A stretch of DNA of 64,000 bases from positions 3,497,501 through 3,561,500 of the forward strand of contig NZ_RBXO01000001.1 in the NCBI RefSeq assembly GCF_003634935.1, in the 5' to 3' direction. The notes under the pieces are model-generated. The model worked only from the letters and a program-made list of their open reading frames with translations. It did no database searches and was not told where the DNA came from. The stretch's first letter is position 1. Each line of letters opens with the position of its first letter. This DNA is from Saccharothrix australiensis (GTDB lineage: Bacteria > Actinomycetota > Actinomycetes > Mycobacteriales > Pseudonocardiaceae). Shown here one piece after another: positions 9,441 to 64,000 of this stretch. The position numbers and the translations under genes were made by a program.

Positions 9441-9441
9441 A

Positions 9442-38958: not shown

Positions 38959-40599
38959 ATGGCAGCCGGTCCCGATGTCCGACCGCAGGCGCACGGGCGC
39001 GAGGACGGCGCGCACCTCCGGGGTGTCGCGGCGGGGCAGGCGGTGTTCGACGAGGCGGGCATCGTGGCGGCGGTCGGCCGGGTGCGGGAGCGGGCGCACC
39101 TCGTGGTGCTCGACGGGCGGGTGGGCGTGGCGCTCGACGACGGCGGCGGTCCGCCACCCGGCGGGCACGTGGGCACGCTGCCTCCGCTGTACCCCGAGTG
39201 GCTGGGCGACCGCTCGTTCTGCCAGGCGCACGGCGTGCGCTTCCCTTACGTGGTCGGGGAGATGGCCAACGGCATCGCTACCACCGGCATGGTCGCCGCG
39301 GCGGCGCGCGCGGGCCTGCTGGGCTTCTTCGGCGCGGCCGGCCTGCCCGTCGCCGCCGTCGACCGGGCGCTGGACGAGCTGGCCGCGACGCCGGGCGAGC
39401 ACGCGCCGTGGGGGGTGAACCTCATCCGCTCGCCGCACGAGCCCGCCACCGAGAACCGGGTCGCGGACCTGTTGCTGCGGCGGGGTGTCCGGCGCGTGTC
39501 GGTGTCGGCGTTCACCGAGCCGAGCCTCGCCGTGGTGCGGTGCGCGGCGACCGGGCTGCGGCGCGGTCCGCACGGGGTGCACCGCCGCGTGCGGTTGTTC
39601 CCCAAGGTCTCCCACCCGGTCGTCGCCGAGCGGTTCATGTCGCCCGCGCCCGCCGCGCTGCTGCGCGCGCTGGTGGACGACGGGCACCTGACGCGGGAGG
39701 AGGCCGAGCTGGCGGGCCACGTGCCGCTGGCCGAGGACATCACCGTCGAGGGCGACAGCGGCGGCCACACCGACAACCGGCCGCTGGTCGCGCTGCTGCC
39801 CGCGATCACGGCGTTGCGCGACGAGGTGGTGCGCCGGTTCGGCTACCGGGAGCCGGTCCGGGTGGGCGCGGCGGGCGGGCTGGGCAGCCCGGCCGGTGTC
39901 GCGGCGGCGTTCGCGCTCGGCGCGGCCTACGTGCTGACCGGGTCGGTGAACCAGGCCGCGGTGGAGTCCGGGCTGTCCGCCGACGCCAAGGAGATGGTCG
40001 CCGCCGCGGACATCTCCGACGTGGTGATGGCGCCGGCCGCCGACCTGTTCGAGTTCGGCGGCAAGGTGCAGGTGCTGAGCCGCGGCACCATGTACGCGGT
40101 CCGGGCCGCCAAGCTGTACGAGCTGTACGTGGGCCACTCGTCGCTGGAGGAGATCCCGGACCGGGTGCGGCTCAAGCTGGAGCGTGAGGTGCTGCACGCC
40201 TCGCTGGAGGAGGTGTGGGCGGAGACGGCCCGGTTCTGGCAGGCGGTCGACCCCGGTCAGCTCGTCCACGCGGAGGCCGAGCCGAAGCACCGGATGGCGT
40301 TGCTGTTCCGCTGGTACCTGGGCCGGTCCAGCCACTGGGCGATCGACGGCGAGCGCGCCCGCCGCGCCGACTACCAGGTGTGGTGCGGACCGGCGATGGG
40401 CGCGTTCAACCGGTGGGCCGCCGGCAGCCACCTCGCGCCGGTCGGCAACCGCTCGGTGGGTGACATCGGGCTGAACCTCCTGGAAGGGGCCGCCGTCGTC
40501 ACCAGGGCCCAGCAGCTGCGCAGCCACGGCCTGCCCGTGCCGGCGCGGGCATTCGCGTTCACGCCGCGCCGACTGGCCGGAGAGAGGCACGGAGCTTGA
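38959..40599 (+). CDS. PfaD-type enoyl reductase of a PUFA-synthase-like system
   Basis: 546 residues. It belongs to the FMN-dependent nitronate monooxygenase/2-nitropropane dioxygenase superfamily in its PfaD version. Motifs: MANGIATTGMVAAAARAGL and GFFGAAGLP near the N-terminus, VSAFTEP, VGAAGGLGSPAGVAAAFALG and YVLTGSVNQAAVE (flavin-phosphate region), and the PfaD-specific C-terminus with HRMALLFRWYLGRSSHWA. PfaD acts in trans and reduces enoyl-ACP intermediates with NADPH. The gene ends 10 bases before the start of the PfaA-like gene, so both form one operon. In most pfa loci pfaD is last; here it is first. Confidence 0.93.
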   Translation: MAAGPDVRPQAHGREDGAHLRGVAAGQAVFDEAGIVAAVGRVRERAHLVVLDGRVGVALDDGGGPPPGGHVGTLPPLYPEWLGDRSFCQAHGVRFPYVVGEMANGIATTGMVAAAARAGLLGFFGAAGLPVAAVDRALDELAATPGEHAPWGVNLIRSPHEPATENRVADLLLRRGVRRVSVSAFTEPSLAVVRCAATGLRRGPHGVHRRVRLFPKVSHPVVAERFMSPAPAALLRALVDDGHLTREEAELAGHVPLAEDITVEGDSGGHTDNRPLVALLPAITALRDEVVRRFGYREPVRVGAAGGLGSPAGVAAAFALGAAYVLTGSVNQAAVESGLSADAKEMVAAADISDVVMAPAADLFEFGGKVQVLSRGTMYAVRAAKLYELYVGHSSLEEIPDRVRLKLEREVLHASLEEVWAETARFWQAVDPGQLVHAEAEPKHRMALLFRWYLGRSSHWAIDGERARRADYQVWCGPAMGAFNRWAAGSHLAPVGNRSVGDIGLNLLEGAAVVTRAQQLRSHGLPVPARAFAFTPRRLAGERHGA

Positions 40600-40609
40600 G
40601 GTGGAGACG

Positions 40610-43600
40610 ATGAGCGAGCCTTCCTACTCGCGCCAGGCGCCCGTCGCGGTCGTCGGCGTCGGCGCGCTGCTGCCGGGGTGCGACGACGTCGAGGACTTCT
40701 GGCGGGCCGTGCTGACCGGGCGGGACCTGATCGGCGACGTGCCCGCGACGCACTGGCTGCTGGAGGACTACTACGACCCCGACCCGTCCGCCGTGGACAA
40801 GACCTACGGCCGCCGGGGCGCTTTCCTGCGCCCGACGGAGTTCGACACCCTGTCGTTCGGGATACCGCCCAAGGCGCTGCCCGCCACCGACACCACCCAG
40901 CTCCTCTCGCTGGTGGTGGTGGAACGGCTGCTCGCCGACGCGTTCGGCGGCCGGACACCGCCCGACCGCGAGCGGGTCGGCGTCGTCCTGGGCACCGCGG
41001 CGGTGGAGCTGCTCTACACGATGGCCGCGCGGTTGCAGCGCCCGGTGTGGCTCAAGGCGTTGCGCGCGAGCGGGATCGCCGAGCCGGAGGCGCGGCGGAT
41101 CTGCGACCGGATCGCCGACCACTACCCCGAGTGGCAGGAGGAGAGCTTCCCCGGTCTGCTCGGCAACGTCGTCGCGGGCCGCGTCGCCAACCGGTTCGAC
41201 TTCCACGGCGCCAACTTCATCACCGACGCGGCGTGCGCCAGCTCGCTGGCGGCGATCTCGACGGCGGTCGACCAGTTGGCGCTCGGCCGGGCGGACGTCG
41301 TGATCACCGGTGGCGCGGACACCGCCAACGACATCCTGATGTACATGTGCTTCTCCAAGACGCCCGCCATGTCGCCGTCGGGTGACTGCCGCCCGTTCTC
41401 CGACCTCGCCGACGGCACGGTCCTCGGCGAGGGCCTGGTGTTCTTCGCGCTCAAGCGCTTGGCGGACGCCGAACGCGACGGCGACCGCGTCTACGGGGTG
41501 ATCAAGGGCGTGGGCAGCTCGTCGGACGGCAAGGGCGCCGCCGTCTACACCCCCGTGCCGCAGGGCCAGGAGAGGGCGCTGCGCCGCGCCTACCAGGCGG
41601 CGGGCTACGGCCCGGACACGGTGGAGCTGGTCGAGGCGCACGGCACCGGGACCAAGGCCGGTGACGCGGCCGAGGTCGCCGCGCTGCGCGAGGTGTTCGG
41701 GCCGCGTGCGGCCGGCGAACCGCCGCGCACCGCGCTGGGGTCGGTCAAGTCCCAGCTGGGGCACCTGAAGTCGGCCGCGGGCGCGGTCGGCCTGCTCAAG
41801 GCGCTGCTCGCGCTGAACCAGGGCGTGCTCCCGCCCACCGCGAAGGTGCGGCGCCCCAACCCGGACCTGCTGCTGGAGGGCAGCCCGCTCTACCTCAACA
41901 CCGCCGCCCGGCCGTGGGTGCGCGGCCGCGGCCACCCGCGCCGCGCGTCGGTGTCCAGCTTCGGGTTCGGCGGCAGCAACTTCCACCTGACCGTCGAGGA
42001 GTACGTGCCCGCGCCGGGCTCCGCCGCGCGCCGCGCGCCCCGGTTCCGCGCGCTGCCCGCCGAGCTGGTGCCGCTGAGCGCCGCGGGCCCGGTCGAACTG
42101 CTGGCCCGGCTCGACGCGCTGGTGGCCGGACCGGGCGGCACGGCCGCGAAAGCCAAGGCCGCGCAAGGGGAGTTCCGCGCCGGCGACCGGCACCGGCTGG
42201 CCCTGGTGGTCCGCGACGCCGAGGACCTGGCGCGCCAGGCGGCGTCGGTGCGCGGCGCGATCGAGAGCCACCCCGCGCAGCCGTTCGCCACACCGGGCGG
42301 CGCGCACTACGCGGTGGGCGACGCCGATCCCGGCGCGCTGTGCCTGCTGTTCCCCGGACAGGGCGGCCAGTACCCCGGCATGGGCGGCGACGTCGCGGCG
42401 CACCTGCCGCGTGCGCTGGCGGCCTGGGACGCGGCGGCGTCGGTCGACCCGGACGGGTGGGCGCCGCACCGGGTCGCGCACCCGGCGCCTGCCTTCACCG
42501 ACGAGGAGCGGGCGGCGCAGCAGGAGCTGCTGACCGCCACCGAGTGGGCGCAACCCGCGCTGGCCGTGCACAGCCTGGCGCTGCTGGAGGTGCTGCGGTC
42601 GGTGGGCGTCCGGCCCGACCTGGTGGCCGGGCACAGCCTCGGCGAACTGGTGGCGCTGCACGCGGCGGGCGTGTTCGACGCGCCGGACCTGGTGCGCCTG
42701 GCGCGCCGGCGCGGCGAGCTGATGGGCGCGGTCCGCGGCGAGCCGGGCGCGATGCTCGCGGTCGCGGCGGCGGTGGGCCGGGTCGAGGAGCTGCTGGCCG
42801 AGTCCGGCGCGGACGGGGTGTGGGTGGCCAACCACAACGGGCCGGAACAGGTCGTCGTGTCCGGTGTCGCGGACCGCGTCGAGGCGTTGCGGGGATGGCT
42901 GGAACAACGCGGGGTGCGTACCCGCCGGCTGCCGGTCTCGCACGCCTTCCACACCCCGTTGGTGGCCGATGCGGGCGAACCCCTGCTCGACTTCCTCCAC
43001 ACCGTGCCGGTGCGCTCGCCGCTGATCCCGGTGGTGGGCAACCGGGACGCCGCCGCCTACCCCGACGAGCCCGACGCGATCCGGCACGCACTCGCCGCGC
43101 AGGTCGGCGCGCCCGTCCGGTTCGCGGAGCAGGTCGAGGAGCTGTACCGGCGCGGCGCGCGGACCTTCGTGGAGGTGGGCGCGGGCTCGGCGCTGACCGG
43201 CCTGGTGTCCGCGACCCTCGGCGACCGGCCGCACCTGGCGGTGAGCACGGAGCCCCGGCGCGGTGACGGCGTCACCGGGTTGTCCGAGGCGCTGGGCAGG
43301 CTCGCCGTGGCGGGTGTCCCGGTGGACTTCGCCGGGCTGTGGGAGTCCTACGACCGGGCGGAGGCCGGTGCCCGCGAGGAGCCCGCCGCCGACAACCGGG
43401 CCGTGGTGTCGCTCCTGGGCGTCAACTACGGCAAACCGCGTCCGGCGGAGGACGGGACGGCCGCGCTGGCCGAGCCCGTGCCGGGGCCGGGGTCGGTGCT
43501 GGAGCCGGCGGAGGGGGAGGAGGCGTCGGGCACGTCGGCGATGCCACCCGCCCCCACCGTGCCGACAGCGCCCCGACCGGTTTCCGCGCCGCCGGTTTCC

Positions 43601-46600
43601 GCGCCGCCGGTTCCTTCGACAACGGTTCCCTCGGCACCGGTGCCACCGCCGTCCGTGCCGTCGGTTCCCGCGCCCTCGGTCGCCGTGCCGGCGCCTCCGT
43701 CCGTTCCGCTCGGACAGTCCAATGGAGACAGTGAGTGGTGGCGGGCATTGCACGAGTCGCAGCGCGAGACGGCGCTCGCCCACGCCGCCTACCAACGGGC
43801 GATGGCGGACAACCACACCGCGTTCCTGCGGCTGTCCGAGGTCGCGCTGACATCGCTGGCCGCAGCCCTCAACGGCAACGGGCATCACGCGCCCGCACCG
43901 ACTTACGCCCCGCCCGCGACCGCACCGCGACCGGATCCACCCGCCGCGTGGCCCGACGCGCCGCCTGCCGCTCCACCCGCCGTCCGCACCGAGCGGTCGC
44001 CCGCGCCGCCCGACCTGGTCGAGCCCCCGGCACGCCCCGAACCGGCGCCGGTCGCGGAGGGGGACGCGGCGGACCTGGAGGAGGTGCTGCTGTCCGTGGT
44101 GGCCGACCGGACCGGGTTCCCGGAGGAGATGCTGTCGGGTGAGATGGACCTGGAGGCGGACCTCGGCGTCGACTCGATCAAACGGGTCGAGGTGTTGTCG
44201 GCGCTGCGGGAACGGGTGCCGGGGTTGGCCGACGTCGACACCGCTCGGCTGGGCAGGCTGCGGACGCTGCGGGAGATCGCCGACCTCTTCCGCGGGGTCG
44301 CGCCCGTGCCCGCGCCCGAGCGGGGTCCCCGCCCGCCCGGACCGCAGGACCCCGAGCCACCGCCGCCCGCGCGCCTGGCGTGGCGCACCGCGCCCGCGCC
44401 CGCACCCGGCCTGCGGATGGCCGGCCTGTCCGACGGGCCCGTGCTCGTCACACCGGGGGAGCCCGGCGTGGCCGAAGCGCTCGCGGCGCGGCTCGCGGAG
44501 CGGGGCGTGCCCGCCGAAGCCGTGCCCGCCGAAGCCGTGCCCGCCGAAGCCGTGCCCGCCGAAGCTGTGTCCGCCGGAACCGGGTCCGACGGAACCGGGT
44601 CCGCCCTCCCGTCCGACGCCCGCGCGGTGGTGTTCCTCGGCGGCCTGCGGGAGGTCGCCTCGCCCGACGAGGCGTTCGCCGTGCAGCGCGAGGCGTTCCG
44701 GCTCACCCGCGACCTCGCGCCGCGCTTCGCCCGCGACGGCGGGCTCCTGGTCACCGTGCAGGACACCGGGGGCGACTTCGGGCTGCGCGGCGCGCACCCG
44801 GAAAGGGCCTGGCTGGGCGGGATCGCCGCACTGGCGCGCACCGCGGCCGTCGAGTGGCCGGACGCCTCGGTGAAGGCCGTCGACTGCGAACGCGGCGGCC
44901 GGAGCGCCGACGCCCTCGCCCAGGCCCTCGCGGCGGAGCTGCTGACCGGCGGAGCGGCCCCGGAGGTCGGTCTGCGCGCCGACGGCACGCGCACCGCGCC
45001 CGTCCTCGTGCCCGTCCCCGCACCGCCGCCGACCGAGCACGACGACCTCATCCGGCCCGACTCGGTGCTCGTGGTCAGCGGTGGCGCGCGGGGCATCACC
45101 GCGCGGGCGCTGGTCGAGCTGGCCGCGCGCCACCGCCCGCGCCTGGTGCTCCTCGGCCGCACCCCACCGGCCGAGGAACCGGAGGCGCTGCGCGCCCACG
45201 TCGACGAGCCGTCGCTGACCAGGGCGCTAATGGCGCGCGAGCGCGACCGGACCGGCCGCCCGCCCACGCCGGCCGAGGCGGCGGCGCTGGCCGCGCGCGT
45301 GCTGGCGGGCCGCGAGCTGCGCCGGACGCTGGAGGAGCTGCGCGGCCACGGCAGCGAGGTCCGCTACGCGTGCGTGGACGTCCGCGACCCGACCGCCCTG
45401 GCCGCCGCGCTCGCCGCCGTGCGCGCGGAGTGGGGCCCCGTCACCGGGGTCGTGCACGCCGCCGGTGTGCTCGCCGACCGGCGTCTGGAGGACAAGACCG
45501 ACGAGCAGTTCGACCGGGTGTTCGGCACCAAGGCCGACGGGCTGCGCGGCCTGCTGGCCGCGACCGCGGACGACCCGCTGGAGCTGGTCTGCGTGTTCTC
45601 GTCGGTGGCCGCCGTGCACGGCAACGCCGGTCAGTGCGACTACGCGATGGCCAACGAGGTGCTCGCGCACGTCGCCTCCGCCGAGCGGGCCGCCCACCCG
45701 GCCCGCCGCGTGCGGTCGATCGCCTGGGGCCCGTGGCGCGGCGGCATGGTCTCGCCGGGGCTGGCCCACGAGTTCGACCGCCGGGGCGTGCCCCTGCTCG
45801 ACCCGGACGCCGGCGCGCGCGCCTTCGTCGCCGAGCTGTCGGCCGACTCGCCGGACGTGCGGGTGGTCGTGGCCGGCGCGGGTGACGGCGCACCGCACGG
45901 CGCGCCGCCGCGCCGGGCCGCCGAGGTGCTGGTCGACGCGGCGTCGCACGGTCACCTGGCGGACCACGCCATCGTGGGCGTGCCGGTGCTGCCGCTGGCG
46001 GTGGTGCTGGAGTGGTTCCGGGCGGTGGCGGCCACCTGGTGGCCGGGCGGCGACGCGGTGGTGCTCGGCGACGTCCAGGTGCTGCGGAAGGCCGCGCTGC
46101 CCGACTTCGCCACGACCGGGCACCGGTTGGCCGTGCGCGGCGTGCGGCGGGCGGTCGACGCCCGGCCCGTGGTGGAGCTGGAGCTGTGCGGCGACGGTGG
46201 AGTGGTGCACTACCGCGCGGTGGCGTCGGTGGGCGAGGCGCCGGACCCCCGGCCCTGGCACCGCCCCGACGGGGAGCCGTTGGACGCGGACGACCTCTAC
46301 GACGGCGTGGTGTTGTTCCACGGCCCCGCGTTCCAGGTGCTGAGGGGCGGGCCGGTGGTCGCCGCGGACGCCGCCGCCGGCGTCGTGGACGGCTTGCGCG
46401 CGAAGGGGTGGCCGGCGGGGTTGTGGCACACCGATCCGGTGGCGGTGGACGGCGCGCTGCAACTGGCGGGCCTGTGGGCGGCGCGGCGGCTGGCCGGCGC
46501 GTGGCTGCCGATGTCGGTCGGGCGGTTCGCGGTCGGGCGGTCCGGGCCGCTGACCGCGCCGGCGGAGGTGGTCGTGCGGGTCGGCCGGGTCGAGCACGAC

Positions 46601-46753
46601 ACCGCGCGGTGCGACATCCGGGTGCAGGACGGCGGTGGCGCGGTGGCGGAGCTGACCGACGTCGTGCTGGTGCGCCGGCCCGATGTGCCGGCCGACCGGG
46701 TGCCGGCCGCGCCGGCGGGGGAGGTGGCGGTGTGGCGGGGCGCGAGCCGGTAG
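40610..46753 (+). CDS. PfaA-like iterative synthase: KS-AT-ACP-KR-DH
   Basis: 2047 residues. ATG 40610 is chosen because GAGG lies 8 bases upstream; GTG 40601 is possible. Domains: KS about 9-465 (active-site Cys209 in DAACASSL, EAHGTGTKAGD, GHLKSAAGAVG), AT about 577-883 (GHSLGE with Ser near 673; SHAFHTPLV), a Pro/Val/Ser-rich linker, the post-AT helix typical of PfaA (HESQRETALAHAAYQRAMAD), one ACP with its phosphopantetheine Ser near 1189 (LGVDSIKRVEV), KR about 1483-1710 (VVSGGARGI, YAMAN), and a C-terminal DH about 1782-2030 (HLADHAIVGVPVLP). It should catalyse repeated condensation and ketoreduction. PUFA-type PfaA proteins usually carry several tandem ACPs; here only one is present. 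Confidence 0.94.
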   Translation: MSEPSYSRQAPVAVVGVGALLPGCDDVEDFWRAVLTGRDLIGDVPATHWLLEDYYDPDPSAVDKTYGRRGAFLRPTEFDTLSFGIPPKALPATDTTQLLSLVVVERLLADAFGGRTPPDRERVGVVLGTAAVELLYTMAARLQRPVWLKALRASGIAEPEARRICDRIADHYPEWQEESFPGLLGNVVAGRVANRFDFHGANFITDAACASSLAAISTAVDQLALGRADVVITGGADTANDILMYMCFSKTPAMSPSGDCRPFSDLADGTVLGEGLVFFALKRLADAERDGDRVYGVIKGVGSSSDGKGAAVYTPVPQGQERALRRAYQAAGYGPDTVELVEAHGTGTKAGDAAEVAALREVFGPRAAGEPPRTALGSVKSQLGHLKSAAGAVGLLKALLALNQGVLPPTAKVRRPNPDLLLEGSPLYLNTAARPWVRGRGHPRRASVSSFGFGGSNFHLTVEEYVPAPGSAARRAPRFRALPAELVPLSAAGPVELLARLDALVAGPGGTAAKAKAAQGEFRAGDRHRLALVVRDAEDLARQAASVRGAIESHPAQPFATPGGAHYAVGDADPGALCLLFPGQGGQYPGMGGDVAAHLPRALAAWDAAASVDPDGWAPHRVAHPAPAFTDEERAAQQELLTATEWAQPALAVHSLALLEVLRSVGVRPDLVAGHSLGELVALHAAGVFDAPDLVRLARRRGELMGAVRGEPGAMLAVAAAVGRVEELLAESGADGVWVANHNGPEQVVVSGVADRVEALRGWLEQRGVRTRRLPVSHAFHTPLVADAGEPLLDFLHTVPVRSPLIPVVGNRDAAAYPDEPDAIRHALAAQVGAPVRFAEQVEELYRRGARTFVEVGAGSALTGLVSATLGDRPHLAVSTEPRRGDGVTGLSEALGRLAVAGVPVDFAGLWESYDRAEAGAREEPAADNRAVVSLLGVNYGKPRPAEDGTAALAEPVPGPGSVLEPAEGEEASGTSAMPPAPTVPTAPRPVSAPPVSAPPVPSTTVPSAPVPPPSVPSVPAPSVAVPAPPSVPLGQSNGDSEWWRALHESQRETALAHAAYQRAMADNHTAFLRLSEVALTSLAAALNGNGHHAPAPTYAPPATAPRPDPPAAWPDAPPAAPPAVRTERSPAPPDLVEPPARPEPAPVAEGDAADLEEVLLSVVADRTGFPEEMLSGEMDLEADLGVDSIKRVEVLSALRERVPGLADVDTARLGRLRTLREIADLFRGVAPVPAPERGPRPPGPQDPEPPPPARLAWRTAPAPAPGLRMAGLSDGPVLVTPGEPGVAEALAARLAERGVPAEAVPAEAVPAEAVPAEAVSAGTGSDGTGSALPSDARAVVFLGGLREVASPDEAFAVQREAFRLTRDLAPRFARDGGLLVTVQDTGGDFGLRGAHPERAWLGGIAALARTAAVEWPDASVKAVDCERGGRSADALAQALAAELLTGGAAPEVGLRADGTRTAPVLVPVPAPPPTEHDDLIRPDSVLVVSGGARGITARALVELAARHRPRLVLLGRTPPAEEPEALRAHVDEPSLTRALMARERDRTGRPPTPAEAAALAARVLAGRELRRTLEELRGHGSEVRYACVDVRDPTALAAALAAVRAEWGPVTGVVHAAGVLADRRLEDKTDEQFDRVFGTKADGLRGLLAATADDPLELVCVFSSVAAVHGNAGQCDYAMANEVLAHVASAERAAHPARRVRSIAWGPWRGGMVSPGLAHEFDRRGVPLLDPDAGARAFVAELSADSPDVRVVVAGAGDGAPHGAPPRRAAEVLVDAASHGHLADHAIVGVPVLPLAVVLEWFRAVAATWWPGGDAVVLGDVQVLRKAALPDFATTGHRLAVRGVRRAVDARPVVELELCGDGGVVHYRAVASVGEAPDPRPWHRPDGEPLDADDLYDGVVLFHGPAFQVLRGGPVVAADAAAGVVDGLRAKGWPAGLWHTDPVAVDGALQLAGLWAARRLAGAWLPMSVGRFAVGRSGPLTAPAEVVVRVGRVEHDTARCDIRVQDGGGAVAELTDVVLVRRPDVPADRVPAAPAGEVAVWRGASR
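44506..44580 (+). repeat. 15-bp tandem repeat in the ACP-KR linker of the PfaA-like gene
   Basis: Four exact copies of cgtgcccgccgaagc (44506-44565) and a fifth degenerate copy, encoding repeated VPAEA. They lie in a flexible inter-domain linker and look like slipped-strand expansion. Confidence 0.9.
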
Positions 46754-51642: not shown

Positions 51643-51889
51643 GCGCGCGCGGGCGCGCCGGACGGCCCTCTTCGGCCTCTCGGGTGGTCATTCCGCCCGG
51701 CTCCCCTCGAATGGAGTCGAAATTCCTCTACCCAGCGTGACCGCACCGGGATCGGTTGTGTATTCGGCCGGTCGCCCTTTGTGCGGAACAGCCTGATCGG
51801 CCGTCGCGGTGCGAGGTATGCTCATTCGGCGGGTCCTGTTGCGTCGACAATGCGCGCGGTTGTCGCGGGCGTCGCGGAGGTGTCACAGC
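51643..51889 (+). promoter_or_regulatory. Upstream region of the first LuxR-type regulator
   Basis: 247 bases with lower GC (for example cgaaattcctctaccc near 51718) between the synthase subunit gene and the regulator. Likely holds the regulator promoter. No gene seen. Confidence 0.45.
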
Positions 51890-52249
51890 ATGTGTCCGGA
51901 GGAGCGCATTCCCGATACCGGTGGGGAACCCACCGTGCTGGGGCTGATTCGTTTGGCGCGCACCCACCAAAGTATCGCGCAGGCGCTGCTCGCCCATGCC
52001 GAGAAGATCGGTCGCCGCAATTCGGCGGTGTTGCCGGCCGCCCTGGACGGCCTGGCGAGGTGGAATCTCACCAGACGGGAGCGGCGGGTGGCCGAACTAC
52101 TGGTGGAAGGGCTGTCCAATCGCCGGATAGCGCGCAGAATGGAAATCTCCGAGCGCACCGTGAAAAACCACCTGCACTCGATCTTCTACAAGCTCGGCGT
52201 CGGTGACCGGACCCAGGCGGTCATCAAGCTGATGCGGAGGCCCGAGTGA
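51890..52249 (+). CDS. Small LuxR/FixJ-type HTH regulator
   Basis: 119 residues from ATG 51890, chosen for its strong ribosome site (gcggaggtg, 8 bases upstream); an upstream ATG at 51809 has none. The C-terminal GerE/LuxR helix-turn-helix is complete: LTRRERRVAELLVEGLSNRR, then MEISERTVKNHLHSIFYKLG. The N-terminal 50 residues are short and helical, without a receiver or autoinducer domain. It probably regulates the synthase genes. It is convergent with the ABC1 kinase gene, 11 bases apart. A second similar regulator lies at 56633. Confidence 0.9.
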   Translation: MCPEERIPDTGGEPTVLGLIRLARTHQSIAQALLAHAEKIGRRNSAVLPAALDGLARWNLTRRERRVAELLVEGLSNRRIARRMEISERTVKNHLHSIFYKLGVGDRTQAVIKLMRRPE

Positions 52250-54978: not shown

Positions 54979-56487
54979 ATGGGCGCTGATCCGTTCCGGC
55001 ATCTGACCGGTCTCCGGACGTGGGGCGCGGTGCGGGAGATGAACGCGGTGGAGGCCATGTTCTGGCGGGCCGACACCAGCGCCGGCCTGAACGCGAACCT
55101 CATCGGGATGCACCTGCTGGACCGCTCGCCCGACTGGGACCGGCTGGTCGCCAAGCACCGGTGGGTCAGCCGGGTGGCGCCGCTGCTGCGCAGCCGACCG
55201 GTCGAGCCGCCCCTGCGGGCCGGCCGGCCGTTCTGGGCGGACGACCCGCACTTCGAGGTGGAGCGCCACCTGCGCCGGGTGCGGCTGCCCGCGCCGGGTT
55301 CGCACCGCCAGCTCCTGGATTTCGCCCAGGCGCTGGCGATGTCCGCGTTCCCCGCCGGGTGGCCGCTGTGGGAGGCGGTGCTGGTCGAGGGCGTCAACGG
55401 GCACGGCGCGGCCTACCTGCTCAAGCTCCACCACAGCCTCACCGACGGCACCGGCGCGTCGCAGCTGGTGTACCTGCTGACCGACGAGGAGGCCGACCCG
55501 CCGCTCCCCGAGCTGCCGCCGCCACCGGGACCCGGCCGGGCCCGGACCAACCGGGGGCTGCTCCTGGCCGGGCGGCTGGCGCGGACGGCGGGCGGCGCGG
55601 CGCGGGCCGCCTGCCGCCTGCCCGCGGCGCGCGCCGCCCGGTCCGCGGCCCGGCTCGACGGCGGGCCGCGCGCGTCCGTCCGGGCGCGGGACCTCCGGGC
55701 GCTGCTGCCGCTCGTCCCGCCGACCCTGCTGGCGCTCGCCAGGGCCACCGTGCTGCCGTCGATCCCGCCCTCGCCGCTGCTGGCCGGCCGCAGCGGCCGC
55801 GCCCGGTTCGAGATGCTCGACGTGCCGTTCGAGGCGCTGCGGGCAGCCGGGAAGGCCGCCGGCGGCACCTTCAACGACGCCTACCTCGCCGCGCTGGCCG
55901 GCGGTTTCGACCGCTACCACCGGCGGTTCGGCACGGCGGTGGACGCCGTGCCCGCCCTGCTGCCGATCAGCGTGCGCCGCCCCGGCGCGATGGCGGGCGG
56001 GAACCACCTGGCCAGCTCCCGGTTCGTCCTGCCGACCGGCGAGCGGTCGCTCGCGCGGCGGGTGCGCCTGATCCACGACCGGGTGGCCGCGGTGCGCGGC
56101 GGGCCGACGCTGCACGCGCTGCGCCTGCTGTCCCGCCCGATCACGCCGCTGCCGCCGTCCTGGGTCGCGGGCGTCACGATGCAGCTGTTCCGCGGCAACG
56201 ACCTCCTGGCGAGCAACTTCGCCGGGATCAACCGGCAGGTCCACCTCGCCGGGGCCAAGGTGACCGCGATCGTGCCGTACGCGCCGCTGCTGTGCGGCGC
56301 GGTCTCCATCGCCCTGGTGTCCTACCAGGACAGGGCCTGCCTGGGCATCACCCTCGACTCCGCCGCGGTCACCGAGCCCGACGTCTTCGTGGCCTGCCTG
56401 CGCGAGGGCTTCGACGAGGTGATCGCGTCGCTGCCCGCCGGGCAGGCGCCCGCCGCGCCGGAACGCGCGGCATCCCGCAACCACTGA
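54979..56487 (+). CDS. Wax ester synthase/diacylglycerol acyltransferase (WS/DGAT family)
   Basis: 502 residues, typical length. The N-terminus has MNAVEAMFWRADT (compare the usual LSxxDxxFL). The acyltransferase motif is LLKLHHSLTDGTGAS (HHxxxDG). Further family segments are GGTFNDAYLAALAGGFDRYH, SVRRPGAMAGGNHLASSRFV and LLASNFAGINRQVHLAG. The enzyme esterifies acyl-CoA (or acyl carrier) to long-chain alcohols or diacylglycerol, usually at lipid droplets. ATG 54979 has gaggt about 10 bases upstream. It sits between the two arms of the synthase locus and may release or store the synthase product. Confidence 0.93.
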   Translation: MGADPFRHLTGLRTWGAVREMNAVEAMFWRADTSAGLNANLIGMHLLDRSPDWDRLVAKHRWVSRVAPLLRSRPVEPPLRAGRPFWADDPHFEVERHLRRVRLPAPGSHRQLLDFAQALAMSAFPAGWPLWEAVLVEGVNGHGAAYLLKLHHSLTDGTGASQLVYLLTDEEADPPLPELPPPPGPGRARTNRGLLLAGRLARTAGGAARAACRLPAARAARSAARLDGGPRASVRARDLRALLPLVPPTLLALARATVLPSIPPSPLLAGRSGRARFEMLDVPFEALRAAGKAAGGTFNDAYLAALAGGFDRYHRRFGTAVDAVPALLPISVRRPGAMAGGNHLASSRFVLPTGERSLARRVRLIHDRVAAVRGGPTLHALRLLSRPITPLPPSWVAGVTMQLFRGNDLLASNFAGINRQVHLAGAKVTAIVPYAPLLCGAVSIALVSYQDRACLGITLDSAAVTEPDVFVACLREGFDEVIASLPAGQAPAAPERAASRNH

Positions 56488-56632: not shown

Positions 56633-57136
56633 TTGACCACCCCCGGCGCCGACGTGTTCCCCATCCCGGCACCACTCCCGCGCCCACCGGACGCCGAACC
56701 GGCCGCCCCCTCGCTCGACCTGGTCGAGCACGCGTTGCAGTGCGTCCGGCAGGCCCTGGCGTCCGTGGAGCAGGTGGCGCGCACGCTGTCGGTGGGTGAC
56801 GGCCGGGAACGGGCGGAACCGCGCGCCGCCGTGGCCGCGCGCCCCGACGGGAGCGCCCACGAGCCCTGGCTGACCAGGCAGGAGCGGCGCGTGCTCACCC
56901 TGGTCGCCGCCGGGCTGTCCAACCGGGAGATCGCCGGTGTCCTGGAGATCTCCGAGAAGACCGCCAAGAACTACGTGCACACGGTGCTGGTCAAGCTGGA
57001 CGCCGGCAGTCGCACGGAGGCGGCGTTCACCGCGCTCTACGAGAACCTGGTGGACCTGGACGAGTGCCGCCGCGCCAGCAAGCGCTCGTCGGCCTCCTGG
57101 CTGGTACCGCCGCAACGGAGCCGGCCGCTGCCCTGA
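56633..57136 (+). CDS. LuxR-type HTH regulator with proline-rich N-terminus
   Basis: 167 residues from a TTG start at 56633 supported by cgaggagaag 6-12 bases upstream. The N-terminus is Pro-rich (PIPAPLPRPPDAEP), then a helical segment, then a full LuxR helix-turn-helix: LTRQERRVLTLVAAGLSNRE, then LEISEKTAKNYVHTVLVKLD. No phosphorylation or ligand domain is present. It is closely similar in its HTH to the regulator at 51890, so the two are probably paralogues controlling this locus, perhaps as partners. It precedes the AT-ACP gene by about 150 bases. Confidence 0.9.
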   Translation: MTTPGADVFPIPAPLPRPPDAEPAAPSLDLVEHALQCVRQALASVEQVARTLSVGDGRERAEPRAAVAARPDGSAHEPWLTRQERRVLTLVAAGLSNREIAGVLEISEKTAKNYVHTVLVKLDAGSRTEAAFTALYENLVDLDECRRASKRSSASWLVPPQRSRPLP

Positions 57137-57282
57137 CCCCGCGCCGCGCGCCCGGCGGGTGCCCGGAGTGCACCTGCCGAAGGGTTCTGCCGCCGCGGCG
57201 GCTTCGCTCGCACACTGGGTGACCGGCCGACGACGCCGGCACGGCGCACGACGAGCACCCCGACGTGTCCCGGAGGACATCG

Positions 57283-58863
57283 ATGAACCCACGTACCGCC
57301 TTCCTCTTCCCCGGACAGGGGAGCTACCTCCCCGGCCTGTTCGGCAACCTCGTCGACCACCACCCGGTGATCGGGGACACCCTGTCCACAGTGGACTCCG
57401 TCGCCACCCGGCTCGGGCGGGCGGCGGTGTCGCCGATGCTGCTCGACACCGACTCGCCGACCCTCCAGGAGCTGGTCGCCCACGACCCGCCCGCGCTGCA
57501 CCTGGCGATCTTCGCCGCGTCGGTGGCCACCTCGCGGCTGCTGGTCGAGGACGGCGGGGTGGCCCCGGACCTCATGCTGGGGCACAGCTTCGGCGAGCTG
57601 ACGGCGTTGACCGCGGCCGGCGCGCTGACCCTGGCCGACGGCGCGCACCTGGTGGCCCGGCGCGACGAGTCGCTGCGCCGGCCCGGCGCGCCGCGCGGCG
57701 GCCTGGTGGCGGTGAGCTGCGGCGTCCGCCGCGCACGGCACCTGCTGGGCGCGCTGGACGAGTGGGGCCTCGCCGTCGCCGCCGACAACGGCCCCGACCA
57801 GGTCGTCCTCTCCGGGCCGGACGAGGCGCTGGCCAGGCTCCAGGAGGCGGCGGGCGCGCTCGGGCTCACCGCGACCCGCCTGCGCATCCCCTACCCGTTC
57901 CACAACCGGCTCATGCTGGACGCGGCCGACGACTTCGCCGAGCGGACGGCGGACGTGCCCAAGCGGGCGCCCCGGCTGCCGGTGTACTCGCCGCTGCTGG
58001 GCCGTTACGTCGAGGACGTCGCGGACGTGGAGCGCGTGGTCCGCGACCACCTCGTCCGGCCGGTGCTGTTCCTGGACGCGGTCCGGGCCGTGCACGCCGA
58101 CGGCGTGCGGCGGTTCGCCGAGGCCGGGCCGAAGGGCGTCCTGGTGGACCTGGTGGCCCGTGCGGTGCCCGACGTGGTGACCACCGCGCCGCTGCGGCGG
58201 CGGACCGACCGGCGCGGGCTGCTCTCCGCCGTGGAGGAACTGCTGGCGCACGACGACCGGTGGGTGCCGGCACCTCGTCGCGTCGAGCACGACCGATGGG
58301 CGCCGATGCCACCCCGCGCGGTGCGCGCGCGCGAACCGGGGACGGAGCCGTCCCCGGTCCGGGGGACCGGTCGGTGGCAGGAGTGGACCACCACCCGCGA
58401 GGACCCGCCCGGACAGCCGTCGGCGCCGGACCGGCCCTCGGCGCCCGACCGGCGCGAACAACCTGATCCGTCCGAACAGGACGGTCGCGTCAACGCGTCC
58501 GGAAGGGACGGTGCGGAGTCGGCGGCGCAGCACCTCCCGGCCGCACCCGCCCGCCCCGGACCGCACCCGGTCACCGCGGCGGGCCTGGACCGCGACGAAG
58601 TGCTCGGCACCGTGCGCGGGCTGTACGCGGAGCTGGTGGGCTACCCGGTGGACGTCTTCGAGAGCGGCACCGACCTGGAAGCCGACCTCGGCATCGACTC
58701 CATCAAGCAGACCGAGGCGTTCGCGCGGATCACCCACCACTTCGGCATCCCCGAGACGGCGTCGGTGGACGTGCGGCTGACCGACTACCCCACCGTGGAC
58801 GCGGTCGCCGACCTCGTCGTGGAGCTGGCCGAGGGCCGCGAGCCGACGGGACGGGTCGCGTGA
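57283..58863 (+). CDS. AT-ACP didomain protein
   Basis: 526 residues from ATG 57283 (GGAGG 6 bases upstream). The AT spans about 1-315: AFLFPGQGSYLPGLFG, the nucleophile LGHSFGELTALTA (Ser102), IPYPFHNRLML (His) and VLFLDAVRAVHADGVRRFAE. A Pro/Asp-rich linker with PSAPDRPSAPDR repeats leads to one ACP (about 440-515, ADLGIDSIKQTEAF, Ser473). The IDSIK form of the ACP is typical of PUFA-type and enediyne-like iterative synthases. It provides a second carrier and a third acyltransferase to the system. The stop overlaps the GTG of the next gene, so the two are coupled. Confidence 0.93.
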   Translation: MNPRTAFLFPGQGSYLPGLFGNLVDHHPVIGDTLSTVDSVATRLGRAAVSPMLLDTDSPTLQELVAHDPPALHLAIFAASVATSRLLVEDGGVAPDLMLGHSFGELTALTAAGALTLADGAHLVARRDESLRRPGAPRGGLVAVSCGVRRARHLLGALDEWGLAVAADNGPDQVVLSGPDEALARLQEAAGALGLTATRLRIPYPFHNRLMLDAADDFAERTADVPKRAPRLPVYSPLLGRYVEDVADVERVVRDHLVRPVLFLDAVRAVHADGVRRFAEAGPKGVLVDLVARAVPDVVTTAPLRRRTDRRGLLSAVEELLAHDDRWVPAPRRVEHDRWAPMPPRAVRAREPGTEPSPVRGTGRWQEWTTTREDPPGQPSAPDRPSAPDRREQPDPSEQDGRVNASGRDGAESAAQHLPAAPARPGPHPVTAAGLDRDEVLGTVRGLYAELVGYPVDVFESGTDLEADLGIDSIKQTEAFARITHHFGIPETASVDVRLTDYPTVDAVADLVVELAEGREPTGRVA

Positions 58864-61800
58864 CCGGTCGGGCGGGTGGCCCGCAGGCGCCGCCCGGTGA
58901 GTTCGAGGGGAAGGTCGTGCTCGTCACCGGCGGTGCGCGGCGGGTCGGCCGGGCCATCGTGCACGAGTTCGCGTCCCTGGGCGCGCACGTGGTCGTCAAC
59001 TACTTCCACTCCGGGCAGGCGGCGCACGAGACGCGCGAGCAGGTCCTCGCCGCGGGCGGCTCCTGCGAGCTGCTGCGGGCGAGCGTCGCCAAACCCGACG
59101 ACGTCAGCGCGATGTTCGACACCGTGCGTGACCGCCACGGCGCGCTGGACGTGCTGGTGAACAACGCGGCGCGAGGGGTGTTCGCGCCGACGGCGACGCT
59201 GACCGAGGCGGACTGGCGGAAGATCTTCGACGTCAACGTGCACGGGGCCCGCCGGTGCGCCCTCGCCGCCCTGCCGCTGCTGGCCGCCGTCGGCGGCGCG
59301 GTGGTGAACGTGTCGTCCATCGGCACGGAGGTGGTGCTGACGGACTACACCGCGATCGCGGCGAGCAAGGGCGCGTTGGAGACGCTCAGCCGCTACCTCG
59401 CGGTGGAGTTCGCCGAGCGCGGTGTGCGGGTGAACGTGGCGTCGGCGGGCCTGCTGGACAACCCGACGGCGGACCTGTTCCCCGACGCCGCCGAGCTGCG
59501 CGCGCGGTGCGCGGCGGCGGCTCCCCTGGGTCGGCTGGGCACGGAGCAGGAGTTGGCGCGCCTGGTGGTGCTCCTGGCGTCGCCCCGGCTGGGCTGGGTG
59601 ACCGGGCGCAGCCTGCTCGCTGACGGCGGGCTGTCGCTCGGCCACGCCCTGCTGCGACCGGACCCGCCGGCGGCACGGGTGCCGGCGGCGCGCGAGGCGG
59701 GTGGCCGTGCGCCTTCGCCGGGGGCGGCGGGTGGCCGTGCGCCCGTCCTCGGGGCGAAGCCCGCCAACGGTGATCGTCTTGCCGAGCCGGGTCCGGCGTC
59801 GGTCGCACCCGCGCGCGCCGCCGGGCGGTCCGGGTCCGTGACGTCCCCCGGACCGTCAGGGGCCGACGACTCCGCCGGCGACCGGACCGTCGCGGTGGTG
59901 GGGCTGGGGCTGGCCCTGCCCGGCGCGGTCGACCCCGGCGAGTTCTGGGAACTGCTCGACCGGGGCGAGCCGGTCTTCGACGAGCCGCGCGAGCGGTTCC
60001 GCCGGGACGCGTTCAAGACGCCGGACGGGACCGCGCCGGGCGGCACCGCACCAGGGTGGTCCACTCTGGACAAGTCCACTTCGGACGGTGCTGTACCGGA
60101 CCCGAACGCGGCGGACCGCGGTTACACCTTCCGCGGCGGCTACCTCCGGAACCCCCGCCTGCACCGCGAGGCCAAGGCGCGGTCCTGCGCCAACGACATG
60201 GCCGCCCAGTGGTTGCGGCACAGCCTGGCGCAGGCGTTCGAGGACGTCGTCCACCTGTCCGGCGACCGGGTCGAGTGCTTCGTCGGCAACACCGTCGAGG
60301 GCAACCAGCACCTGGAGGAGCGCCTGGTGGTGGAGACCGCGCTGAACCGGCTCGTCCGGCACTGGCCGGACCCCGACGCCGATCGCGACCGGCTGGCGGA
60401 CCGGCTGCGCGCGGTGCTGCTGCGGCACTACCCGCACGCGGCCGGCGACGGGCGCGGCCACCTGCCGGACGGGGTCGTGCACGCCGCCGTCACCGACCTC
60501 CTGCCGGCCGGGTCGCCGTACACGACGGTGGACACCGCGTGCTCGTCCAGCCTCTACGCCGTCGACCTGGGCGTGCGCAGCCTGCTGGCGGGCGAGAGCG
60601 ACATCGCCGTGTGCGGCGGGGTGTTCACCAACACGCCGCGGTTCTCGATCATGTTCGCCGCGCTGCGCGGGCTCAGCCGCAGCGGCGCGGTCCGGGCGTT
60701 CGACCGGGCCGCCGACGGCACGCTGTTCTCCGACGGCGCGGGCGCGGTGGTGCTCAAGACGCTGCGGCGCGCCCGGCGGGACGGCGACGAGGTGCTGGCC
60801 GTGCTGGGTGGCACGGGGGTGGCCTCCGACGGCCGGGGCAAGGCGGTCTACGCGCCCAACCCGGTCGGGCAGGGCATCGCCGTCCGCCGGGCCAGGCGGG
60901 TCAACGGGACCCGGCCCGAGGACGTCGACTGGGTGGTCGCGCACGGCACGGGCACCCCGGTGGGCGACCGGGTCGAGCTGGGCGTGCTGGACTCGGCCGC
61001 CCCGGAGCGCGGCTACCCGTGCACGTCCAACAAGTCGCTGATCGGCCACACCGGCTGGACGGCGGGCGTGGCGTCGGTCATCCACGCGGTGCTCGGGTTG
61101 CGCCACGACCGCGTGCCGGCGCAGCGCCCGCTGCGCGAGACGACCCCGGACGTCCGGAACACCCGCGTGCGCATCCCGCGGACCGGCCGACCGCTGCCGC
61201 GCGAGCAGGGCAGGCCGCGGGTGGTGGGCGTGTCGGCGTTCGGGTTCGGCGGCACCGACGCGCACCTGCTCGTGCAGGACCCGCCGCCGCCGGGCGGCAC
61301 GCCGCCGGTCTCGGCGCCCGAACCGGAGACCGACGACGTGGTGCTGGTCGGGTGGACCGCCCACCTGCCCGACGACCCCTCGCCCGAGCAGGTGCGGACG
61401 CGGTTGGCGGCGGGCGCGCCGCTCACCGCGCGGCGGGCGTTCCCCACGCCCTACCCGCCGCCCGCCGGCATCGTGCGGCTGACGCCCCGCACCGCGCGGA
61501 CGATCGACCGGTCCCAGCTCATGGCGCTGGCCGTGGCCGCGAAGTTCGCCGAGGAGCACGGCGCGATCTGGGAGGAGGTCGCGGAGCGCACCGCCGTCCT
61601 GGCCGCGCACACCGGTCCGGCGAGCCTGCTGGGCACGTCCGCGTTGCGCTGCTACGCCGACGACCTGCGCGCGCTGCGCCCGACCGAGGACGACGGGCTG
61701 CCGCCCGAGGCGCTGGCCCGCGCGATCGAGGGCTGCCTGGCGCAGGTGCGGCGGGAGCGGGTGCCCACCAACGAGGACCTGCTGCCGGGTTCGGGCCCGA

Positions 61801-64000
61801 ACATCATCCCGGCCCGGCTGGCGAACGCCCTGGACCTGCACGGCCCCGCGCTGACCCTGGACACCGGGCGGTCGTCCACCCACACGGCGGTGCGCACCGC
61901 CTGCCACTACCTCGCCGACCGCGAGACCGACCTGGTGCTGGTGCTGGCGCTCAACGGCAACAGCACGCCCGAGCTGGCGGCCCTGCTCGACCTGCCCGCC
62001 GACCGCCTCGGCGAGGGGGCGTTCCTGCTGGCGCTGGCGCGCGGGCGGGACGCGGCGGCGAAGGGGTGGCCCGCGCTGTGCCGGGTGACCGCCGACCCGC
62101 GACCGCGGCGGGCCGCCGCGGTCGACCGCCCCGAGGACCCGTCGGCCGGGCTCGTCGAGGGCGGGTCCGCGAGCCACCCGGAGACCTCGCGCGCCGATGC
62201 CGCCGCCGGCGCGCCCACCGAGCACCTGGCCGCGGACCACGCCGGGGGTGCCGGCCACGTGGCGGGCGCGCGCACCTACCTCGCCGCCGACGGCGCGATC
62301 GACCTGCTGACCGCGCTGGCGGGCGGCCCGGTCGAGCCGGTGACGGTGACCGCCCCGTTCCCGGGGCCCGCGCTCACCCTGCACCCCGTGCCGGCGACCG
62401 GCGCCGATCGGGCCGGTGGGTACCCGGCAGCCGCCCGGCCGGTCGCCGCGAACCCGGCGCGGGAGACGGCGGACCCGGCGCGCGACACCGCGAACCCGGC
62501 GCGGGAGACGGCGGACCCGGCGCGGGAGACGGCGGACCCGGCGGGGGAGACGGCGAGGTCGGCGCGGGAGACGGCGGACCCGGCACGCGACACCGTGAAC
62601 CCGGCGCCGGACACCGCCGCGCCGGTGGTGCCCCGGCCGCCGCGAGACCCGCTGACGGCCCGGCACGTCTGCCGCTGGGAGCCGCAACCCCTGCCGAGCG
62701 GTCGCGACGGGCTGCCCGCCGACTGCCTGGTGCTCGCCGACGAGGCGACGGCACGGGCCGTCGCCGGCGCGGCGGAGTCGACGGGCGCGACCGTGGTCGC
62801 CGTGCGGCCCGGCGACGACCCGGAGGCCGTGCTGCTCCCGGCCTTCGCCGCCGGGAGGTCGTACCGCCACCTGCGCGTCCTGGCCCGGCAGCGGCACGCC
62901 GGGCCCCACGCCTCCGAGTCCGCCGACACCCTGGTGGTGCTCCAGGAGGCGGTGTTCCTGGCCGCCCAGCGCTGCCTGCGCGAGCTGACCGGCGGCGGCT
63001 CGCTGGGCGCGGTGCTGCTCGACCCGCTGGAGTCGGGCACGCCGGGCGTCCACACGGGACTGCTGTCCGGTTTCGTCAAGAGCCTGTCGTGGGAGCTGCC
63101 CGCGTGCACCTGCCGGATGGTCGTCACCGACGAGCCCGCGGTCGCGGCGTGGCACGCGCTGGAGGCCGAGCCGGGGCAGCGCGGCGGGCTGCCGGTGGTC
63201 CTGCGCCGCGCCGGTACGCGGTACCGGCAGCGGCTGCACCCCGCGCCGCCCGACATCGGGGAGCTGCCGCTGTCGGCGGGCGACGTCGTGGTGGCGACCG
63301 GCGGCGCGCGGGGCATCACCGCCGCGTGCCTGGAAGCGCTGATCGACCACGTGCCGCTGAAGGTGTGGCTGCTCGGGTCGTCCACCCCGGCGGAGGTGCC
63401 GGACTGGCTGCTCACCGCGGCGGACGACGACCTGCCCGCCCACCGCGCGGAGTTCATCGCCCGGCTCCGCCGCGACGAGGGCGCGCCGGTGGCCGAGCTG
63501 AACCGGCGCTTCGAGCGGCTGCTGCACGCGCGGGAGAGCAGGCTGACCCTGGACCGGATGCGGCGGCGCTGCGGCTGGACCGCGGTGCAGTACCTGACCT
63601 GCGACGTGGTCGACCCGGACGCGGTGCGCCGCGCGGCGGCGACCGTGCTGGCTCGGGACGGCCGGGTCGACCTGCTGGTCAACGGCGCGGGCGTGCACGG
63701 CGCGGGCGACCTGGAGCGCAAGCGGCTGGCGGACTTCCGCCGGATCAGGGACGTCAAGCTGCTCGGCTACCGGCACCTCAAGCGGTACTTCTCCGCGCCG
63801 CCGCCCCGGCTGTGGTGCAACTTCGGCTCGGCCGCCGGCCTGGTCGGCCTGCCGGGGGAGTCCGAGTACGCGGCGGCCAACGACTACCTCTCCTGCGCCG
63901 CCGAGCACCGGCGCGCGACGGGCGGGTCGGACGAGTACACGATGGCCTGGACCGTGTGGGACGAGACCGGGCTCGGCGGCGGTCCCGTCGCCCAGGCCAT
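58860..64000 (+). CDS. Giant fusion: FabL-type SDR enoyl reductase - KS - CLF - KR (partial at right edge)
   Basis: At least 1713 residues, open to the window end. GTG 58860 overlaps the previous stop. Residues about 15-260: an SDR with VVLVTGGARRVGRA and Y163-x6-K170 (DYTAIAASKGALETL), the spacing of enoyl-ACP reductases such as FabL, not the Y-x3-K of FabG. After an Ala/Gly/Pro linker, KS about 342-800 has VDTACSSSLYA (Cys561), VAHGTGTPVGD and KSLIGHTGWTAG. A second KS-like domain about 826-1100 has DTGRSSTHTAV in place of the active site, so it is a chain-length-factor type. A repeat linker (62451-62618) is followed by KR from about 1476 (VVATGGARGIT, EYAAAND). The frame was checked for continuity across the linkers. 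Expected role: second condensing and reducing module of the synthase. Confidence 0.92.
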   Translation, partial: MTGRAGGPQAPPGEFEGKVVLVTGGARRVGRAIVHEFASLGAHVVVNYFHSGQAAHETREQVLAAGGSCELLRASVAKPDDVSAMFDTVRDRHGALDVLVNNAARGVFAPTATLTEADWRKIFDVNVHGARRCALAALPLLAAVGGAVVNVSSIGTEVVLTDYTAIAASKGALETLSRYLAVEFAERGVRVNVASAGLLDNPTADLFPDAAELRARCAAAAPLGRLGTEQELARLVVLLASPRLGWVTGRSLLADGGLSLGHALLRPDPPAARVPAAREAGGRAPSPGAAGGRAPVLGAKPANGDRLAEPGPASVAPARAAGRSGSVTSPGPSGADDSAGDRTVAVVGLGLALPGAVDPGEFWELLDRGEPVFDEPRERFRRDAFKTPDGTAPGGTAPGWSTLDKSTSDGAVPDPNAADRGYTFRGGYLRNPRLHREAKARSCANDMAAQWLRHSLAQAFEDVVHLSGDRVECFVGNTVEGNQHLEERLVVETALNRLVRHWPDPDADRDRLADRLRAVLLRHYPHAAGDGRGHLPDGVVHAAVTDLLPAGSPYTTVDTACSSSLYAVDLGVRSLLAGESDIAVCGGVFTNTPRFSIMFAALRGLSRSGAVRAFDRAADGTLFSDGAGAVVLKTLRRARRDGDEVLAVLGGTGVASDGRGKAVYAPNPVGQGIAVRRARRVNGTRPEDVDWVVAHGTGTPVGDRVELGVLDSAAPERGYPCTSNKSLIGHTGWTAGVASVIHAVLGLRHDRVPAQRPLRETTPDVRNTRVRIPRTGRPLPREQGRPRVVGVSAFGFGGTDAHLLVQDPPPPGGTPPVSAPEPETDDVVLVGWTAHLPDDPSPEQVRTRLAAGAPLTARRAFPTPYPPPAGIVRLTPRTARTIDRSQLMALAVAAKFAEEHGAIWEEVAERTAVLAAHTGPASLLGTSALRCYADDLRALRPTEDDGLPPEALARAIEGCLAQVRRERVPTNEDLLPGSGPNIIPARLANALDLHGPALTLDTGRSSTHTAVRTACHYLADRETDLVLVLALNGNSTPELAALLDLPADRLGEGAFLLALARGRDAAAKGWPALCRVTADPRPRRAAAVDRPEDPSAGLVEGGSASHPETSRADAAAGAPTEHLAADHAGGAGHVAGARTYLAADGAIDLLTALAGGPVEPVTVTAPFPGPALTLHPVPATGADRAGGYPAAARPVAANPARETADPARDTANPARETADPARETADPAGETARSARETADPARDTVNPAPDTAAPVVPRPPRDPLTARHVCRWEPQPLPSGRDGLPADCLVLADEATARAVAGAAESTGATVVAVRPGDDPEAVLLPAFAAGRSYRHLRVLARQRHAGPHASESADTLVVLQEAVFLAAQRCLRELTGGGSLGAVLLDPLESGTPGVHTGLLSGFVKSLSWELPACTCRMVVTDEPAVAAWHALEAEPGQRGGLPVVLRRAGTRYRQRLHPAPPDIGELPLSAGDVVVATGGARGITAACLEALIDHVPLKVWLLGSSTPAEVPDWLLTAADDDLPAHRAEFIARLRRDEGAPVAELNRRFERLLHARESRLTLDRMRRRCGWTAVQYLTCDVVDPDAVRRAAATVLARDGRVDLLVNGAGVHGAGDLERKRLADFRRIRDVKLLGYRHLKRYFSAPPPRLWCNFGSAAGLVGLPGESEYAAANDYLSCAAEHRRATGGSDEYTMAWTVWDETGLGGGPVAQA
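62451..62618 (+). repeat. Eight imperfect 21-bp (7-residue) tandem repeats in the CLF-KR linker
   Basis: Consecutive units NPARETA, DPARDTA, NPARETA, DPARETA, DPAGETA, RSARETA, DPARDTV, NPAPDTA. The period is 21 bp and in frame. It is a flexible tether before the KR region. Confidence 0.92.

Follow-up and report, generated by a model that had tools for sequence, protein, structure and literature searches.

A Saccharothrix locus in which a Pfa-type synthase without KS-CLF and a second iterative synthase may serve one lipid pathway

Introduction

Is a PUFA-synthase-like locus whose KS-CLF pair lies apart from its dehydratases a single rearranged synthase, or does it hold more than one? The question is raised by a set of genes in the 7.86 Mb genome of Saccharothrix australiensis, located in a stretch of 64,000 nucleotides that we refer to as the window. 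An earlier interpretation of these genes from their letters and open reading frames (hereafter the sequence-only reading) listed five megasynthase proteins and saw in them the redistributed functions of one PUFA synthase. We describe here the domain content, ancestry, conservation and distribution of the locus, and weigh the explanations that these allow.

Results

Gene content and setting of the locus

Profile searches with Pfam and NCBIfam bore out the five proteins and the domains listed for them, with three corrections, to the end of protein 5, to its SDR and to the reading of the hotdogs (Table 1). The PfaD, PfaA and PfaBC genes are spaced by 1–2 bases, and the two genes that we call unit 2 (an AT-ACP gene and a longer gene encoding protein 5) overlap by 4 bases. 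Beyond the earlier list, the locus includes a WS/DGAT, an ABC1 kinase, LuxR, a GMC oxidase, a second SDR and an acetyl-CoA carboxylase set. The gene for this further SDR lies 40 bases after that of protein 5; its product contains a Y-x3-K motif, and its best matches are hydroxybutyrate dehydrogenase and ketoreductases. The carboxylase set adjoins the locus in the window, as it does in two related genomes (G200 and G308), and was not found in Saccharothrix algeriensis (54 kb searched) or in G011, a genome of the window's genus (40 kb searched).

Table 1. Features of the locus (positions in the window).
Feature	Position	Strand	Evidence and remarks
GMC-type oxidoreductase, conserved flank	36975..38582	-	PF05199; before PfaD
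PfaD-type flavin enoyl reductase	38959..40599	+	TIGR02814
PfaA-like KS-AT-ACP-KR-DH, one ACP	40601..46753	+	TIGR02813, Pfam domains, motifs
PfaBC-like: KS vestige - AT - DH2 (four hotdogs), KS-CLF lost	46756..51642	+	PF07977 in three stretches; PF00698 weak
Short LuxR-like frame	51797..52246	+	39% to second LuxR of locus; like frames at same place in relatives
ABC1/UbiB-family kinase-like protein	52261..53751	-	PF03109, 171 bits
WS/DGAT-family acyltransferase	55030..56487	+	PF03007, 141 bits; HHSLTDG
LuxR-type regulator	56633..57136	+	PF00196
Unit 2 first gene, AT-ACP	about 57283..58863	+	PF00698, PF00550; GHSFG and IDSIK
Unit 2 second gene (protein 5), FabL-like ER-KS-CLF-KR-DH	58860..64000, on to 65072 beyond the window	+	2070 aa

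A modular PKS run upstream of the window (at about 3378707–3490179 of its contig) contains more than 20 ketosynthases in ~110 kb, and the whole genome yields 72 Ketoacyl-synt_C matches. Within the window, a 3046-residue RHS-repeat protein with a laminin-G-like domain (25020–34160) adjoins a tachylectin-domain protein (23028–24938), and an nSTAND1 NTPase with WD40 repeats is encoded on the minus strand at 20257–22911.

A Pfa-type synthase with an eroded KS-CLF

Both the PfaD-type enoyl reductase named in the sequence-only reading and the PfaA-like protein score above their curated cut-offs (588 bits against 449 for TIGR02814, and 1132 against 1010 for TIGR02813). The PfaA-like protein carries the expected active-site motifs (KS Cys and His; GHSLG and AFHTP in the AT; VDSIK in the ACP; a Ser-Tyr stretch in the KR; a His motif in the DH), and Pfam detects a single PP-binding stretch in it rather than tandem ACPs. 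Glycine-motif patterns gave no match in its KR or in the SDR of protein 5; the other residues of these two domains were identified by eye or by pattern.

The start of the PfaBC-like protein, near 46756, was chosen by codon usage, the open frame beginning earlier, within the PfaA gene. The vestigial KS that had been assigned to this protein is real but faint: KS-like sequence persists over the first ~300 residues, where no active-site Cys motif is seen and a KS HMM search reports nothing. A profile of the vestige, built from four homologues, could be aligned with a mixed and chiefly modular set of KSs over 147 columns; with the KSs of PfaC, PfaA and unit 2 the alignment covered 25–33 columns, at an ‘LKR-DA-DGD’ stretch. 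The protein scores 59 bits with the PfaB profile TIGR02816 (curated cut-off 144), and of the two parts that define PfaC (a KS-CLF with a FabA-type DH2) it retains DH2, the KS-CLF surviving only as the vestige.

The four hotdog domains reported for the same protein are likewise genuine, but they do not represent an extra dehydratase set: they match the DH2 region that Persicobacter psychrovividus and Azospirillum lipoferum have in their PfaBC-type proteins, with an identical catalytic pattern, and are the normal DH2 of PfaC-type proteins. The dehydratases are indeed fused to a PfaB-like AT; the fusion is the known PfaBC layout with an eroded KS-CLF. KS-CLF-AT-DH2 fusions appear as types C and D in excerpts of a published classification (PMC3098273), and excerpts of a second paper describe PfaBC proteins that lack either the CLF or the whole KS-CLF (PMC13291983). 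In a tree of DH2 regions the four loci that contain the full gene set (described below) form one clade (100/100). Loss of KS-CLF amounts to two changes on the best such tree, on which the starred branches leave a single change possible.

Separate ancestry of the ketosynthases

A careful KS tree was built from 62 of 72 KS sequences. The PfaA KSs form a clade of 22 rows (support 100/97) that is separate from the clades of PfaC (9 rows, 99/97) and of unit 2 (20 rows, 100/100). The window's PfaA KS falls in the first of these, which together with the PfaD and PfaA scores upholds the kinship with PUFA synthases proposed for the locus, and no grouping of the KSs with ordinary modular type I PKSs was seen in the tree. 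Joining the focal PfaA KSs to the modular set was rejected outright (p-AU 1.9e-40), and a modular ancestry of the PfaA KS is thereby ruled out. Outside the PfaA KS clade, the sequences that come nearest to it belong to two single KS-AT-KR-DH PKSs encoded elsewhere in the same genome as the window (contig positions 4447677–4453619, minus strand, and 3660876–3667157, plus strand).

The suggestion that the KS-CLF pair had moved away from the dehydratases did not survive this analysis. The KS of protein 5 belongs to the unit 2 clade, and forcing the four focal unit 2 KSs together with PfaC made the tree 174 log units worse (p-AU 2e-5), which excludes a transfer of KS-CLF from PfaC to protein 5 for those four. 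The union of all unit 2 KSs with PfaC was not rejected (p 0.62, with the constrained tree scoring 3.4 units above the unconstrained tree), and a deep common KS-CLF ancestor is therefore possible.

Domains of unit 2

Protein 5 had been read as SDR-KS-CLF-KR. Those four domains are all present, but the end of the protein was missed because it lies beyond the window: sequence read past the window end, to 65072, contains a C-terminal PKS-type DH (PF21089), and the architecture is thus SDR-KS-CLF-KR-DH. An alignment of 22 homologues, taken from those with an SDR match, shows Cys and both His residues in the KS and no Cys at the matching position of the CLF in all 22, and a Y-x6-K motif in the SDR of the window and of 20 of the 22 (the exceptions being G291 and G239a).

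The best of 687 PDB matches to this SDR is FabL, at 150 bits (the next, a glucose dehydrogenase, reaches 136.5), and its Y-x6-K aligns without gaps to entries 3oic and 3oid, which we take to be the FabL enoyl-ACP reductase of Bacillus subtilis. FabL is also the top SDR family in NCBIfam, with 204 of the 328 bits that its cut-off demands. Judged from these comparisons the domain looks like a FabL-like enoyl reductase; we go no further than ‘FabL-like’ because the PDB match and the motif agree on this family but the NCBIfam score lies under the cut-off. In contrast to FabL, the window's domain is fused to KS-CLF-KR-DH. Excerpts of one study place FabI and FabL among the YX6K enzymes (PMC6817880). 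PDB searches started from the KS-CLF and from the KS of PfaA led to general PKSs within the 60 matches listed, and a PHROGs search gave a single weak match, to a family of unknown function.

Conservation of the combined locus and a variant without Pfa genes

Four species from two genera (that of the window, S. algeriensis, G200 and G308) share the order GMC oxidase, PfaD-PfaA-PfaBC, ABC1 kinase, WS/DGAT, LuxR, unit 2 pair and second SDR, and the closest named relative of the window's locus is that of S. algeriensis DSM 44581. A fifth locus, in G011, reads GMC-LuxR-ABC1-WS/DGAT-LuxR-AT-ACP-long unit 2 gene-SDR, with the long gene as one open frame and the SDR at 85% identity; it has no PfaD-PfaA-PfaBC between GMC and ABC1. 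The GMC protein at the matching place is 94% identical in S. algeriensis, 77% in G308 and G200 and 72% in G011. Across the four relatives the ABC1 kinase-like protein reaches 75–88% (G011 78%), the WS/DGAT 66–84% (G011 66%) and the LuxR-type regulator preceding unit 2 52–76%.

The unit 2 tree places G011 beside G200 and G308 (87/80), nested among the full loci. A clade of the four full loci that leaves out G011 was rejected (p 0.024), and a grouping of G011 with the window and S. algeriensis was not (p 0.32). Given the grouping with G200 and G308, the simplest reading of these sequences would be a single gain of the Pfa block and its later loss from a full ancestral locus in G011, with two gains as a less simple alternative. 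G011 also has a different PfaD-PfaA-PfaBC set ~177 kb from its unit 2 locus, and this distant set might act in trans. In a second arrangement, found in three genomes of another genus, unit 2 lies within about 20 kb of PfaD; counting this arrangement and the full locus of four species, unit 2 and Pfa genes are linked more than once.

Two of these genomes hold further related genes. S. algeriensis has a second Pfa locus (at about 974800–991500 of its contig) comprising PfaD, PfaA and, on the opposite strand, a KS-CLF-DH2 protein in which the KS-CLF is kept. In G011, a second WS/DGAT-SDR-AT-ACP-long gene set stands directly behind the first unit 2 locus (about 20180–29786 of the joined stretch).

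Unit 2 as a stand-alone pair

With the CLF as query (E 1e-20 or better), 47 of 390 genomes of the family matched, as did 13 of the 397 that were sampled across the order (the latter counted from listed places). Twenty of the 47 family genomes also have a PfaD match, 19 of them over the cut-off. PfaD over the cut-off lies at most 25 kb from the unit 2 CLF in seven genomes (that of the window, S. algeriensis, G200, G308, G1068, G1071 and G1073), and in G890 a PfaD below the cut-off lies 37 kb away. Conversely, PfaD-PfaA occurs without unit 2 in the stretches fetched from G003, G009 and G021b.

For the most part, the unit 2 clade consists of a two-gene pair, [AT-ACP] plus [ER-KS-CLF-KR-DH], without Pfa genes. 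Twenty-five copies from the order have no PfaD-like match in the stretches fetched (18–40 kb each). The N-terminal SDR is fused in 20 of these stand-alone copies and not in G017, G005, G239b, G312 and G397; three copies (G249, G011b and Sal_3) have no DH match, and the second gene is split in G258a, G090b and G397. Paraburkholderia ginsengisoli (plasmid NZ_CP066077) and Streptomyces sp. NBC_01237 (plasmid NZ_CP108509) also carry the pair; there the two genes and their order are as in the window, the KSs fall in the same clade, and no PfaD-like match was found in the stretches examined.

The genes around two or three of the stand-alone loci encode, among others, KAS III-like proteins, an AMP ligase, an ACP-bearing decarboxylase, a P450, FAD monooxygenases and MMPL. 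At one locus (7880–14589 of the stretch from G115) unit 2 has as neighbours a decarboxylase-like protein with an ACP, an acyl-CoA dehydrogenase, an AMP ligase and a KAS III-like protein, which perhaps suggest an amino-acid-derived starter.

Discussion

We consider it probable that two different iterative type I synthases serve one specialised-lipid pathway at this locus, because their KSs fall in separate clades whose union, for the focal sequences, was rejected, each unit has a full domain set, each is found alone, a congener (G011) keeps the rest of the locus without the Pfa block, and the two units are nevertheless linked in conserved loci more than once. What appears to be a single rearranged PUFA synthase would then be two systems, a KS-CLF-less Pfa set and an independent KS-CLF family with its own ER-like domain. 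The former comprises PfaD, a one-ACP PfaA and a PfaBC in which the AT and the two FabA-type dehydratases persist, and its PfaA KS would be expected to carry out every condensation. The latter, with AT-ACP and ER(FabL-like)-KS-CLF-KR-DH, should provide every activity of a fatty-acid cycle. Each synthase would build a separate acyl chain, and both chains would feed the one pathway.

WS/DGAT enzymes make wax esters and triacylglycerols. The member encoded here matches PF03007 over the cut-off and contains the HHxxxDG motif, and could take a finished chain from an ACP and esterify it; we propose such a release because no thioesterase was found among the domain matches of the core genes. An ester step with this enzyme as the releasing one is a tentative proposal, and one that we put forward with less confidence because no more than 5 of the 25 stand-alone copies (G011a, G011b, Sal_3, G017 and G005) have a WS/DGAT match nearby; as the three loci of the second arrangement also lack one, ester release would not be general to unit 2. 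As far as its gene content indicates, the product of the locus is probably a specialised lipid, perhaps an ester. We are doubtful of the most complete version of this scheme, in which an undescribed class of two-protein iterative synthases (AT-ACP plus FabL-like ER-KS-CLF-KR-DH), spread through many actinomycetes and onto a Burkholderiales plasmid, is coupled here to a KS-CLF-less Pfa synthase, with the WS/DGAT joining or releasing the two chains as a wax-ester-like secondary lipid.

The most serious competing explanation, which we nevertheless judge unlikely, is a single rearranged PUFA synthase, the functional counterpart of the sequence-only reading, in which the KS-CLF of unit 2 takes over from the one that PfaBC no longer has, and a single chain is lengthened by all five proteins. 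In its favour, conservation extends to the gene set as a whole, each of the four full loci pairs a PfaBC that has lost its KS-CLF with a unit 2, and a deep common ancestor of PfaC and unit 2 was not rejected. Yet PfaBC also lacks KS-CLF in G021, in whose genome the CLF query found no unit 2 at E 1e-20, and conversely it keeps a KS-CLF-like region in G1071 and G1073 even though unit 2 is ~18 kb away. A replacement would furthermore not need the AT, ACP, KR, DH and ER-like domain that unit 2 brings with it.

That two unrelated pathways adjoin by chance would fit the occurrence of each unit without the other, but the Pfa block sits inside the other locus, between GMC and ABC1, in four of the five related loci examined and in two genera, and we regard a chance association as distinctly improbable. 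Still less credence is due to the idea that the locus supplies a lipid starter or side chain to the large modular PKS, which is encoded upstream on the same strand: ~41 kb separate the last modular PKS gene from PfaD, including genes for a class I tRNA synthetase, RHS-repeat and WD40 proteins, and in S. algeriensis the 7.7 kb upstream of PfaD contain no KS, AT or KR match. We therefore set that link aside as very improbable.

The loci form a natural series (the full locus in four species, a locus without the Pfa block in a fifth, and PfaD-PfaA alone elsewhere) in which the need of Pfa-type synthesis for a KS-CLF becomes testable, as does the cooperation of two iterative synthases on one lipid.

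Comparison with known systems

In a search of open-licence papers, none of the titles and abstracts listed described either the unit 2 pair or the combined locus, and no product turned up for them; the layout is thus unusual, as the sequence-only reading held. Part of the layout may already be drawn in Figure 1 of PMC3098273, which gives the layouts of types H, L and M of the ‘secondary lipid’ synthases. Both PfaBC fusions and PfaBC proteins that lack KS-CLF are already known. PfaA-like genes as such have precedents in actinomycetes, in Nocardia (PMC4035055) and Kutzneria (PMC4210621), according to excerpts of those papers.

With the ‘secondary lipid’ synthases of types A–T, as excerpts of PMC3098273 present them, the locus shares PfaD and PfaA over their cut-offs and the usual DH2 pattern. 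The clade that contains the window's PfaA KS also includes the KSs of Persicobacter and Beijerinckia indica, and the synthase of B. indica is listed there as type P; the same excerpts accept single-ACP members among Pfa-type synthases. Unlike the Pfa and secondary lipid synthases, the window combines one ACP, a PfaBC without KS-CLF, a second KS-CLF synthase and a WS/DGAT. The AT-DH fusion without CLF or KS-CLF recurs in the PKS-NRPS-PUFA hybrids of cyanobacterial clade II and Ottowia, in the parts of PMC13291983 available to us, but the PfaBC proteins of those hybrids adjoin PKS-NRPS genes, whereas that of the window adjoins an iterative KS-CLF synthase and a WS/DGAT.
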